A stretch of 64,000 nucleotides of DNA from assembly GCA_958431225.1 (NCBI GenBank), contig OY288107.1, positions 310,001-374,000 on the forward strand. The letters are read 5' to 3'. A model generated the notes under the pieces. That model was given only the letters and a program-made list of their open reading frames with translations. It did not search any database and was not told where the DNA came from. Positions 3,073 through 9,372 of this stretch are shown piece by piece. How positions within the stretch are numbered: the stretch's first letter is position 1; the number at the start of each line of letters is the position of its first letter. This stretch comes from an uncultured Alphaproteobacteria bacterium. Its GTDB lineage: Bacteria > Pseudomonadota > Alphaproteobacteria > Puniceispirillales > UBA1172. Position numbers and translations under genes: made by a program.

Positions 3073-4177
3073 GTTTTGTATCCTTTGCATTTTTTGGGCG
3101 TGTTGAGCCACGGACAATCAGAGGACCATCAATTTCAACCCGCCGCGCGTGGGGTGCGTGCGTCCCCTCCCCCTCAATTCCATCCCCCTCAATCCTATCA
3201 AGAAGAATATCCAAAGTTGCCATCACCATACGATTAGTCGGCTGACGCACCGTGGTTAGATTATACGCCGCCCATGCCGCCGCCGGCACATCATCATAGC
3301 CCACCACCGCAACCTGTTCAGGCACTTTTATGCCCAGCTCAAAACGCAATGTATCCATGACCGCGAACGCCATGTGGTCATTGGCAACAAAAATCGCATC
3401 GGGGGCTTGTTCTATGCCGTTGGCAAACCCCCCATTGGCAAACCCATTGGCGAACCCATTGGCAAACATAGCGCGCGTAGCTTGTTTCGCGTCTTCCATA
3501 ACGAAATTGCCCACGCCGCGACACCAGAGTTTACGCCCCGCCTTGCCCAGAGTTTCGACAAAACCAGCCTCGCGGTCGCGTTGGGTTGAGGCGCCTTCCC
3601 ACCCAGCGATATAGGCAATGCGCGTATGCCCTGTCTGCATTAAAAATTCGGCAACCTTGCCGCCGCCAGCATAATTTGCCGATGTCACCGATGATAGGCT
3701 CGCATCATCCTGCGAGCGATTGAATGAAACCACCGGCACCCCTGCCGCCGCGCAACGTTGCAACAAATCTGACGACATCGCTACCGACGCCGCGATAATG
3801 CCATCTACCTGATAATCCAGAATCTCCTCAACGACATGGCTGACATCGCCTTCGGTTTTTGAGGTCATAAACACCAGCAAATGATAGCCACGTGCTTGGA
3901 ACGCATTGGAAAGTTTTTCTACGGCTTCGGGATAAAACTGATTTTGCAGATACGCCACCACCAGCCCAATCATACGGCTTTTGCCCGAAACCACGGCACG
4001 CGCTAGTGAATTCGGGCGATACCCCATCTCCATGGCAATTTTTTGCACTTTTTCCCTAGTCCGTGCCGAAACCAACGCACCCGAACCGAAGGTGCGGCTG
4101 ACGGTTGATTGCGACACGCCCGCACGTTCTGCAACATCATTTGCCGTGATCTGAAAATGGCGTGAAGTGAGGCTCAT
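3059..4177 (-). CDS. LacI-family transcriptional regulator with internal FANG repeats
   Basis: A 372-residue LacI/GalR regulator. The N-terminal helix-turn-helix is [21 protein letters not shown], followed by the hinge [20 protein letters not shown] and a periplasmic-binding-protein-like effector domain ending ...[13 protein letters not shown]. The start at 4177 overlaps the HisD stop (ATGA). The effector domain has an unusual insertion, [17 protein letters not shown], just before the conserved [12 protein letters not shown] stretch, encoded by a 12-nt tandem repeat at 3420-3470; a 15-nt imperfect repeat lies at 3168-3197. The regulator sits in the middle of the operon and probably acts on the LacI-type operators at 10526-10595, with a substrate or intermediate of the operon as effector (inference). 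Confidence 0.93.
3420..3470. repeat. 12-nt tandem repeat inside the LacI gene
   Basis: Four units (one 15 nt, three 12 nt) of TTGGCAAACCCA-type sequence on the + strand, encoding repeats of Phe-Ala-Asn-Gly on the minus strand. All copies keep the reading frame. Copy number could change by slippage and alter the effector domain. Confidence 0.9.
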
Positions 4178-6036: not shown

Positions 6037-6930
6037 CTATCCTTTCACTGCCCCTTGCGTTAGCCCTGAGACAATCTGACGTTGGAAAAACAGCACCAGA
6101 ATAAATAAAGGTGCCGTCGCCGAAACCACCGCAGAAACCGCAAACATAACATTGCCTTCGGTTTGGGTGGTGCCGAGAAAACTCGCGATTTTTGGCACCA
6201 TCGTCTGATTTTCTTTTGACAACAGCATTGAGGTAACCGCGAAATCATTATAGGCAAGCAGAAAACTAAAAAGCCCCGTCGTAATCACCCCGGGCCACAT
6301 TACCGGAATAATCACATGGCGGAAGGCTTGAAATTGCGTACAGCCATCCACCTTGGCGCTTTCATCCAATTCTTTGGGGATTTTCTGAAAGAAACTATGC
6401 AGCATCCATAAGGTAAAAGGTTGATTGATTGCCACCAGAACAATCACCGTGGTCGCCAAATGCCCCCAGAGATTCCATTCAAAAAACGGCAACAAATACC
6501 CCGCAACCAGCGTAATCGGCGGCATAGCACGAAAAATCAGTGCCGTAATCAACAGCCAAAACGTATAGCGATAATTTGACCGCGACAGCGCATACCCGCC
6601 CAAAGTGCCAATCGTCAGTGATGTGCAGACAACAAAGAAACAAACCAAGGCCGTATTCACCACCGCCCGCCAGAATTCTTCCTGCACCCATGCGCCGTTA
6701 TAGGCTTCGCCGATAAACGCCCTGCCGTGTTCGGCTATGGTGCGGGGGGCGGTTAGGGCGTTCATCCAATCGGCTTTGGAAAAGAAATCGGCTTCCATTT
6801 TGAACGACCCCCACAGCGTCCAAAAAAACGGAAACGCCGCAACAATCAACCAAAGGCCAATAAATCCCCAAATCAGCATCTTTAATCCAAGCGATTGCCG
6901 CTTCCGAGCCAAAACATGTGTTGATGACAT
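6037..6930 (-). CDS. ABC importer permease, MalG type
   Basis: A 297-residue inner-membrane protein with about six membrane segments, beginning LIWGFIGLWLIVAAFPFFWTLW. The EAA loop that contacts the ATPase is seen as ELDESAKVDGCTQFQAFRHVIIPVMWPG. It is the second permease of a carbohydrate-type importer (CUT1), after the permease at 6944-7987. The short C-terminus LTQGAVKG is typical of the MalG group. Substrate unknown. Confidence 0.93.
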   Translation of the reverse strand: MSSTHVLARKRQSLGLKMLIWGFIGLWLIVAAFPFFWTLWGSFKMEADFFSKADWMNALTAPRTIAEHGRAFIGEAYNGAWVQEEFWRAVVNTALVCFFVVCTSLTIGTLGGYALSRSNYRYTFWLLITALIFRAMPPITLVAGYLLPFFEWNLWGHLATTVIVLVAINQPFTLWMLHSFFQKIPKELDESAKVDGCTQFQAFRHVIIPVMWPGVITTGLFSFLLAYNDFAVTSMLLSKENQTMVPKIASFLGTTQTEGNVMFAVSAVVSATAPLFILVLFFQRQIVSGLTQGAVKG

Positions 6931-6943
6931 AACCCGCCTCCCC

Positions 6944-7987
6944 CTAACTCTTGGCGTTGAAATCGCGCCACGTCCTGACCAAAACCGGGGCGAGCAAAAT
7001 AGACACCCCGATAATAGTCAGCACCGACGATGTAGCGGCAGAAGAAAGAAGCCGTGTTTCCCCGCCCAAATCATTAAATATAAACCACGATAATGAGGTC
7101 GCGTGCGCTTCAGAATTGAAGCCAACGATAGGCTCAAACACACGGAAATTATCCATCAACTGCATCAAAGCAACAAAGGTAATCAGCGGCATCAAATGCG
7201 GAACAATGACATAACGCACCTGTTGCCAGCGTGACGCCCCATCAATCTGCGCGCTTTCCAATGTATCTTGCGGCAGAGTCTGCAACCCCGCATAAAACAC
7301 GATGAACGAAAACGGCGCGGCGTGCCAGACGCCATAAACAATCAACATCACCCAAGTCAAACCCGTTGAGGCTTTGAGCGATAATGCCGGGTCATTAAAA
7401 ATCCACTGCAAGGCAGAGCCGATAATGCCCCGACTATCAATCATCCAAAACAGCACCAGCGAGCCAATCAAGGGCGACACAATCATCGGCAAAAGCGAAA
7501 AGAAAATCAAAACCCCCTTAAGACGCTGATGCAAAGCATTGACCCCAAGCGCAATCATCAACCCAAAAACAAGCATCAAAGGCGTCACCGAAAACGTAAA
7601 TGTCAAAGTGAACGCCATGGAACGATAAAAAGGCAGATTATTCAAATTAACAAAAAAATTGCCGATGCCTTCTGCCTTTGCCCAAGTTTCTGCGACTTCC
7701 TTGACGGCGAGATGCCCGCGATCAAAATAAATCTCAAGCCCAACAAACCGCCCCAAAGGTTCCTCATCGCGCAATGCTTGCGTGGCATCTTGGTCAATGG
7801 CGGTGGATTTCGTACAGCCAAATGGGTCGCAATTTTCCGTTTCAATCAGCACCGCCTCATGGGGTGTATGCACCGATTGCACCAGAACCGAAACAATAGG
7901 CAAGGCAATAAACAGCAACATCGCCAGTGCTGTCGGCAAAAAGAACCAAAAAAATGAACTATGTCTCATATATATTCGCGCCCACAC
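6944..7987 (-). CDS. ABC importer permease, MalF type
   Basis: A 347-residue inner-membrane permease with a first membrane segment FFLPTALAMLLFIALPIVSVLVQSV and an EAA loop around DTLESAQIDGASRWQQVRYVIVPHLMP. A large periplasmic loop (about residues 35-115) with a Cys pair ETENCDPFGCTKS follows the first segment. Two starts are possible. GTG at 7987 lies 7 nt after GGGAGG, both within the last copy of a 30-bp repeat; ATG at 7969 has only a weak ribosome site. I prefer GTG on spacing, with moderate certainty. It pairs with the downstream permease and the binding protein upstream. Confidence 0.9.
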   Translation of the reverse strand: MWARIYMRHSSFFWFFLPTALAMLLFIALPIVSVLVQSVHTPHEAVLIETENCDPFGCTKSTAIDQDATQALRDEEPLGRFVGLEIYFDRGHLAVKEVAETWAKAEGIGNFFVNLNNLPFYRSMAFTLTFTFSVTPLMLVFGLMIALGVNALHQRLKGVLIFFSLLPMIVSPLIGSLVLFWMIDSRGIIGSALQWIFNDPALSLKASTGLTWVMLIVYGVWHAAPFSFIVFYAGLQTLPQDTLESAQIDGASRWQQVRYVIVPHLMPLITFVALMQLMDNFRVFEPIVGFNSEAHATSLSWFIFNDLGGETRLLSSAATSSVLTIIGVSILLAPVLVRTWRDFNAKS

Positions 7988-8090
7988 CGCCGCGCCTCCC
8001 TATATTCGCGCCCACACCGCCGCGCCTCCCTATATTCGCGCCCACACCGCCGCGCCTCCCTATATTCGCGCCCACACCGCCGCGCCTCCC
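7971..8090. repeat. Perfect 30-bp tandem repeat, four copies
   Basis: Four identical head-to-tail 30-bp units lie between the binding-protein gene and the first permease gene. There are no spacers, so it is not a CRISPR. Read on the minus strand, each unit carries GGGAGG and, 7 nt on, GTG TGG GCG CGA ATA. The three upstream units then hit TAG, giving a five-codon minicistron; the last copy runs on into the permease frame. Confidence 0.97.
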
Positions 8091-8104
8091 TGAAGGCATC
8101 AAAA

Positions 8105-8135
8105 TGACAGGAAGGGCGAAAAACCCTCCCTGTCA
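8105..8135 (-). other. Stem-loop after the binding-protein gene
   Basis: TGACAGG and AGGG arms pair with CCCT and CCTGTCA, with one A-C mismatch and a 7-nt loop. It begins 10 nt after the binding-protein stop. On the minus strand only TTTT follows, so it is more likely a partial terminator or 3'-end protector that raises binding-protein mRNA over permease mRNA than a full terminator. Confidence 0.75.
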
Positions 8136-8145
8136 AATATGATGC

Positions 8146-9372
8146 TTAGTTGAGAAAACCCTTTTCACGGGCAGCCGCCGTATAGGCAGCCTCAACATCT
8201 GCGAGCGCCTGCGAAGCACTTTCCTTACCCTGCATGAAATCAACGATTTCAGCACCCAATGCCGTATGCAACAACCCCTGATAGGGCAGCATCGGATATG
8301 GTCGTGCGTTCATATTCGCCGCCGCAAAAACGCCAACTGCGGCAGGGGTAGGCTCATAGCCGTCAATGAGCCAAACCGCAAGCGGCGTTGTCTCATCATT
8401 GAGAAGGCTTGGGTCAATCCCATTCATCATAGCGAGGAACGTCGCTTCCGCATCTTTGCTTGAAATGTTCTTGGACACCGTCCAGCCATCCCACCAAAGC
8501 GTCGTCGCCGGTGTTGAACCCCCGCCCACCGTCATCGGCGCACCGAGCGTTGTTGTTGCGACCACTTGCGGGGTGGATTGTTCCGGGTCTTTAAGCGGTC
8601 CCATGCGCGAACCCCACATATTCATCATCGCCACATTCCCCGCCTTCCATTCCGCAGAAGTCGCGTTGGAATCATGCGTGAGGAAATCCGGGTTCATATA
8701 TGCGCTGAGGGCTTTGAGCATCTCAAGCGTGGCAACCCCGGCGGCGTTATTGATGGCAACCTCTGCCGTCCCCGGCTTAAAGAATTCGCCGCCATGACCG
8801 ATATACATATTGGTGAATTCCTGTGCGAGATTCCAGCCCGCCTTATAGGCACCGCCAAGAGGATGTTGCAACAAACCCTTATCGCGGATGATTTTCGCAC
8901 CCGCCAGCATCTCCTCATAGGTTTTCGGCGGTTTCACCCCTGCCTTTTCCAGAATATCCGAACGATAAACAAGATGCTGGGCATTCGCCATAAAAGCAAC
9001 CGCCATAATCTCGCCGTTGATTTTAATCAACTGGTTTGGCTTCAATGCCCGTCCGTGCTGTGCCACCAAATCATCAAGCGGGCGAATGACATCTTCATTC
9101 ATCAGTGCCACAATGGATGAATTAGCGATAATCGCGGTGGTATATTCCGCCGGATTGCCTGTCATCCCCGCCACGTTAATTTTTTGGTGGTCGGCGGTTA
9201 GGTTGGCTTTAATCTCACCACCTGAACATGTTTTTGCGCCATCGGCAACCGCGTGGATAGCAGGAAATTCATTCCCGACAATACTCACACGCCCGTCAAT
9301 TTTGCATTCCGCCATTGCCGCCCCTGACATCAGAATCGCCGCACTGGCTAAGACTAGTTTTTTCATAAACAT
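8146..9372 (-). CDS. ABC importer solute-binding protein (carbohydrate type)
   Basis: A 408-residue periplasmic protein. The signal peptide is MFMKKLVLASAAILMSGAAMAEC with cleavage after AMA. The mature protein has the extracellular solute-binding family 1 pattern: PAEYTTAIIANSSIV, INGEIMAVAFMANAQHLVYRSDILEKAGVKPPKTYEEM, and SAEWKAGNVAMMNMWGSRMG near the ligand cleft. AGGGAG stands 6 nt before ATG at 9372; a second ATG two codons on is possible. It follows the ATPase gene and precedes two permeases in one operon. The ligand cannot be predicted; the operon's enzymes suggest an alcohol or polyol rather than a simple disaccharide. Confidence 0.93.
   Translation of the reverse strand: MFMKKLVLASAAILMSGAAMAECKIDGRVSIVGNEFPAIHAVADGAKTCSGGEIKANLTADHQKINVAGMTGNPAEYTTAIIANSSIVALMNEDVIRPLDDLVAQHGRALKPNQLIKINGEIMAVAFMANAQHLVYRSDILEKAGVKPPKTYEEMLAGAKIIRDKGLLQHPLGGAYKAGWNLAQEFTNMYIGHGGEFFKPGTAEVAINNAAGVATLEMLKALSAYMNPDFLTHDSNATSAEWKAGNVAMMNMWGSRMGPLKDPEQSTPQVVATTTLGAPMTVGGGSTPATTLWWDGWTVSKNISSKDAEATFLAMMNGIDPSLLNDETTPLAVWLIDGYEPTPAAVGVFAAANMNARPYPMLPYQGLLHTALGAEIVDFMQGKESASQALADVEAAYTAAAREKGFLN

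Follow-up and report, generated by a model that had tools for sequence, protein, structure and literature searches.

The window that we analysed, a 64,000-base stretch of DNA, carries an ABC-transporter operon on its minus strand. In the direction of transcription this operon runs from a solute-binding protein gene (8146-9372; called from the ORF list, a weak NCBIfam match and comparison with homologues), through a 13-bp hairpin with a short T tail (8105-8135; found by folding and also present in relatives) and a tandem array of 30-bp repeats (7971-8090), to a MalF/UgpA-like ABC permease gene (6944-7969; ORF list, profile match and homologue comparison) and, downstream of that, a MalG-like ABC permease gene (6037-6930; ORF list and profile match). 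The hairpin is terminator-like or may act as a stabiliser of the mRNA 3' end, and the ATG at 7969 corresponds to the start of homologues of the first permease. The first-pass annotation had called this permease MalF-type, and MalF/UgpA-like is the description that we retain, its scores lying below the subfamily cut-offs. Elsewhere in the window (3431-3467), a 12-bp tandem repeat within a LacI-type regulator gene gives the encoded protein a FANG-type residue repeat.

TRF reports the array at 7971-8091 as 4.0 copies of a 30-bp unit with 100% matches, and a pattern search of the window detects the perfect unit four times and no more, where shuffles lead one to expect 0; such a four-unit repeat greatly exceeds what chance would produce. 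On the minus strand, which is the operon strand and the one that gives the unit its G-rich sense, each copy reads GGGAGGCGCGGCGGTGTGGGCGCGAATATA: GGGAGG, 7 nt, and then GTG TGG GCG CGA ATA. In the three upstream units (8001-8090, with GTG at 8017, 8047 and 8077) this five-codon frame, MWARI, is closed by TAG, and the stop abuts the GGGAGG of the next unit. After the unit that is transcribed last (7971-8000; GGGAGG at 8000-7995, 7 nt, GTG at 7987) the frame runs on through TAT ATG AGA CAT into the permease, making this GTG a possible start that would add MWARIY. The array had previously been described in just these terms, with the ribosome site and five codons in all 4 units, three frames closed by TAG and the last one open, and that description is correct in each respect. 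A plus-strand ORF over the array (7782-8093) proved to be a read-through of the repeat in 10-residue steps, which we judge to be non-coding because it is antisense to the operon and terminates together with the array. We also rejected a CRISPR identity, there being no spacers, and no Rfam covariance model matched the region 7800-8300 at E values up to 1.

One way to view the array is as a series of tandem ribosome sites with minicistrons, whose number tunes or phase-varies permease translation by means of decoy starts or re-initiation. Every unit has a strong predicted SD-GTG pair, with a pairing to the 16S end of -10.8 kcal/mol for each array GTG compared to -5.5 for ATG 7969; the stop of each upstream frame meets the next ribosome site; the identity of the copies suggests a recent change in their number; and MIRUs demonstrate that an ORF borne by a repeat can couple to the next gene (PMC12548453). 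However, dinucleotide shuffling of the G-rich unit yields a spaced GGAGG and start by chance in 5.7% of cases, and a start spaced from any 4-nt SD-like sequence in 35%, so the presence of a ribosome site and start within the unit is less far beyond chance than the repeat is. Furthermore, steps of 30 bp never switch the reading frame, and two further lines of evidence, from the variation among related units and from folding, also count against this explanation, as set out below.

The unit is a member of a dispersed repeat family in the source genome, which comprises 2,325,691 bases in one contig. Six further copies of the 30-mer are found there within 3 mismatches, a 22-base core gives 46 matches compared to 3 in a reversed control, and the 17-base half-unit TAAATTCGCGCCCACGC gives 51 compared to 3 in the control. 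We took unit counts from plain mismatch scans, since nhmmer and fuzzy-regex scans under-counted the copies, and read the family from stretches around the repeats plus genome samples. The family occupies about 25 loci that each comprise one unit or several, spaced 30, 33, 27 or 18 bases apart, and has in G-rich sense the consensus CAGGGACGGCGCGGCGGCGTGGGCGCGAATTTA, with a unit of about 30-33 bp. A longer variant of the unit, with nine copies in the stretches read (e.g. L166:6061-6264, L171:7163-7206), has 16 additional bases that contain the palindrome CACCCTGAGGGTG. Within the other 30-bp arrays of the family, units differ by 1-3 bases per pair and those of the permease array by none, which bears out the earlier suggestion that this array expanded recently. 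Assemblers can mis-count perfect tandem arrays, and the exact copy count might on that ground be an artefact. However, the array is only 120 bp long, the genome lies in one contig and the element occurs elsewhere in single and varied copies, making this explanation extremely unlikely.

The family appears to be confined to one species. We found no match to the unit in six congeners and five other family genomes (11 relatives searched), in the genome of the closest homologue of the operon, or in phage and plasmid collections, and our literature search on SAR116 and interspersed repeats returned no paper on this repeat. The congeners lack the permease operon, and we retrieved relatives by the permease itself, most of which are marine alpha- and gammaproteobacteria, including SAR116. 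Among those whose intergenic region was printed, a hairpin-like stretch is followed by a short leader and then the permease ATG, with no array. WTHX01000063.1, whose permease is 90% identical, is the closest relative that we found; its alignment with the window is interrupted only by the array, which it lacks between leader and ATG. Because this relative has no array at the aligned position, the array is best read as an insertion in the lineage of the window. The marks of a small interspersed repeat are all found here, namely many similar dispersed copies, restriction to one species, and an insertion set against an empty site. Thus, we consider it probable that the array is an inserted, locally expanded, species-specific small interspersed repeat. 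Two considerations weigh against this explanation: selection could also account for four identical copies that sit directly in front of a start codon and read in frame into the gene; and the source genome gave no PF01797 match for a Y1/RAYT transposase, nor is a target duplication defined.

The units of the wider family also bear on the first-pass view that the minicistron is the essence of the unit. When 57 units are aligned, the start-codon position is occupied by GCG in 40 and by GTG in 8, four of which belong to the permease array; GGGAGG is present in 9/57, and most units lack GGAGG. Two differences set the permease-array variant apart from the consensus: GGGACGG is shortened by one C to GGGAGG, and the GCG of most units is replaced by GTG. 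The sole other unit with both GGGAGG and GTG, at 175256, faces a convergent gene and has no co-directional gene behind it. The SD and GTG are therefore not features of the family, and the view that the minicistron is essential to the unit is not supported. From the GCG majority, the rarity of GGGAGG and the 5.7% and 35% of shuffles that produce a start, we argue that the five-codon frames of the upstream units arose incidentally with the repeat sequence, although they may be translated.

We used a thermodynamic model to examine the relationship between copy number and the predicted cost of opening the region around ATG 7969. This cost is 17.5 kcal/mol with zero copies, 10.4 with one copy and 11.0-11.3 with two to seven. 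The model thus predicts that having the insert matters and that the number of copies does not, and the proposal that copy number tunes permease translation fits poorly with an opening energy that is flat for 1 to 7 copies. Control by decoy starts or phase variation is possible as judged from the sequence, and in view of the evidence above we think it unlikely.

The start of the permease is a separate matter. Among the 48 relatives examined, the gene begins at the codon matching ATG 7969 (ATG in 47, TTG in 1), and the median predicted 16S pairing of their starts is -2.7 kcal/mol (n=48); the permease gene is therefore not normally dependent on a strong SD. For the ribosome site of the last copy, the earlier proposal stands in part: the strong predicted SD is there (duplex -10.8 kcal/mol) and argues for GTG 7987, but the homologues argue for ATG 7969. 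Returning to the insertion explanation, we propose that a repeat unit was inserted into the short leader that separates the hairpin after the binding-protein gene from the permease ATG, and would then have expanded recently in tandem to four copies. Its main local effect would be passive, in that the ATG has been moved away from the hairpin. The missing C, together with T in place of the usual C, would then have equipped the last copy with a GTG and, ahead of it, a strong Shine-Dalgarno site, and it is likely that this copy now serves as the permease start, with GTG 7987 probably used alone or beside ATG 7969 and contributing the six extra residues MWARIY. The copy number of the array probably drifts by slippage or recombination.

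The setting of the array behind a binding-protein gene allows another role to be envisaged. A REP-type element presumably lies at the corresponding position in malE-malF. By analogy, the array and hairpin together could act at the 3' end of the binding-protein message, blocking exonucleases and setting the ratio of binding protein to permease. The array is positioned like the REP-type element to which an increase in MalE expression, exerted from the 3'UTR, has been attributed (PMC4942690), most members of the family in G-rich sense are situated shortly after a stop codon or tRNA end, and the array folded by itself gives -42.8 kcal/mol (z -2.2). However, the native hairpin is present in relatives that lack the array and would serve this function by itself (the region after the binding-protein stop folds at -31.8 kcal/mol for 61 nt, z -7.0), and the excess of structure over shuffles that the array adds is modest. 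We therefore regard a REP-like role as improbable, and prefer to see the array as an inserted repeat beside a pre-existing hairpin.

Other members of the family have also altered genes. Two tandem 30-bp units (1643425-1643484; L164:5426-5485) are found in frame inside a conserved membrane-protein gene, and five congeners have the gene but not this segment, so that their proteins show a gap of 19 residues when aligned. At 670728, the coding sequence for an ABC permease finishes within a unit, which contributes its final codons and stop (REARGVGAN*). A unit length divisible by three would help such insertions to be tolerated inside genes. Most copies, taken in G-rich sense, lie 4-60 bases after the stop of a co-directional gene, and at most loci, though not all, the repeat has the same direction as the preceding gene. 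Two loci follow tRNA-Ser genes (cga and gga) within a few bases and have a common downstream flank (L157:5635-5761, L165:5257-5383). Using gene calls from a simple hexamer model, we found that about half of the loci border on giant surface-protein genes of cadherin/RTX type, in some cases enclosing the gene between repeats of the same orientation, and that repeats also flank, in direct orientation, two similar GNAT acetyltransferase genes. Some loci are copies of one another with shared flanks, and so not all of them are independent insertions.

In three stretches (L152:5257-9454, L151:5003-6261, L171:5482-7206), repeat-flanked cadherin/RTX and GNAT genes resemble exchangeable cassettes between core genes, and the giant cadherin/RTX-type genes have a common N-terminal region, MPNDLT...SGFTASVWTLSGVVL. 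A further repeat (2147418-2147461; L169:5419-5462) lies between an NAD kinase gene and an ABC exporter gene. Four congeners have at this spot a further gene of about 330 codons, which points to gene loss at the position of the repeat; as a candidate empty site the locus is not clean and we set it aside, since the congeners have another gene between.

The orientation of the repeats follows the replication arms (14:0 compared to 2:8 clusters, Fisher p = 6e-5). This test excluded copies in coding genes as well as doubtful ones, and took the arms from GC skew, for which the boundary near 2.05 Mb is noisy, with no listed repeat between 1.84 and 2.14 Mb. Such a bias could mean that the unit is a chromosome-level signal, a polar motif in DNA that proteins of replication or segregation recognise, to which the permease leader would be incidental. 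However, the family occurs in one species only, its copies are too few, clustered and not enriched at the terminus, its loci include paralogous copies, and gene orientation alone, through leading-strand gene bias, may account for the polarity. We find a chromosomal signal very unlikely for these reasons.

A broader account of the family would be of a 30-bp repeat, transposase-free in appearance and found in one species, which multiplies in tandem, has a polarity tied to replication and prefers the 3' ends of genes and tRNAs; its copies would act as recombination points that shuffle surface-protein cassettes, and some insertions would by chance create new ribosome sites or in-frame segments. 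We offer this account tentatively and, taken as a whole, hold it to be doubtful. At the permease locus, what appeared to be a translation device becomes an example of a small dispersed repeat rewriting genes in a compact bacterial genome, where it can rewrite the start of a gene (the permease), its end (670728) or the interior of a protein (1643425). It also serves as a warning that SD-start motifs in G-rich repeats are not to be read as designed.

Several known systems invite comparison. The REP/BIME element after malE in E. coli is, like the array, a repetitive element following the binding-protein gene of a sugar transport operon (PMC4942690), but the 30-bp unit is not a REP palindrome and folds weakly, no RAYT gene was found in the source genome, and the hairpin at the permease locus is separate and native. 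The BOX, RUP and SPRITE elements of pneumococcus are species-restricted, enriched after gene ends and built in part of variable tandem modules, and have been judged parasitic rather than regulatory (PMC3049150). The 30-bp family is of the same kind, being species-restricted, intergenic, close to gene ends and in some cases composed of variable tandem modules, although it is unrelated in sequence and shorter. It also differs from BOX in its stronger arm polarity, with 22/24 clusters compared to about 61% on the leading strand for BOX (PMC3049150), and in flanking surface-protein genes, which BOX does not. In marine Beggiatoaceae, TAACTGA direct repeats are intergenic and immediately precede start codons, in groups of two to six (PMC4679880). 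These are widespread heptamers, mostly without an SD, whereas the 30-bp unit is G-rich and mostly located after gene ends. Rickettsial palindromic elements are small repeats carried in frame within conserved protein genes, as are the two units inside the conserved membrane-protein gene; the 30-bp unit, however, is not palindromic, is much shorter and is mostly intergenic.

The closest functional parallel is with MIRUs, which measure 40-100 bp, compared to 30-33 bp for units of the 30-bp family. The host here is not a mycobacterium, and an identity with MIRUs fails on the conserved ORF (GCG in 40/57 units) and on the -4 nt overlap of stop and start, the last unit of the array being in frame with the gene instead. 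MIRUs are small repeats, scattered and at times tandem, which insert at gene starts in operons and can place an ORF beside the downstream start (PMC12548453), and the array likewise consists of dispersed units, tandem at times, at a gene start within an operon.
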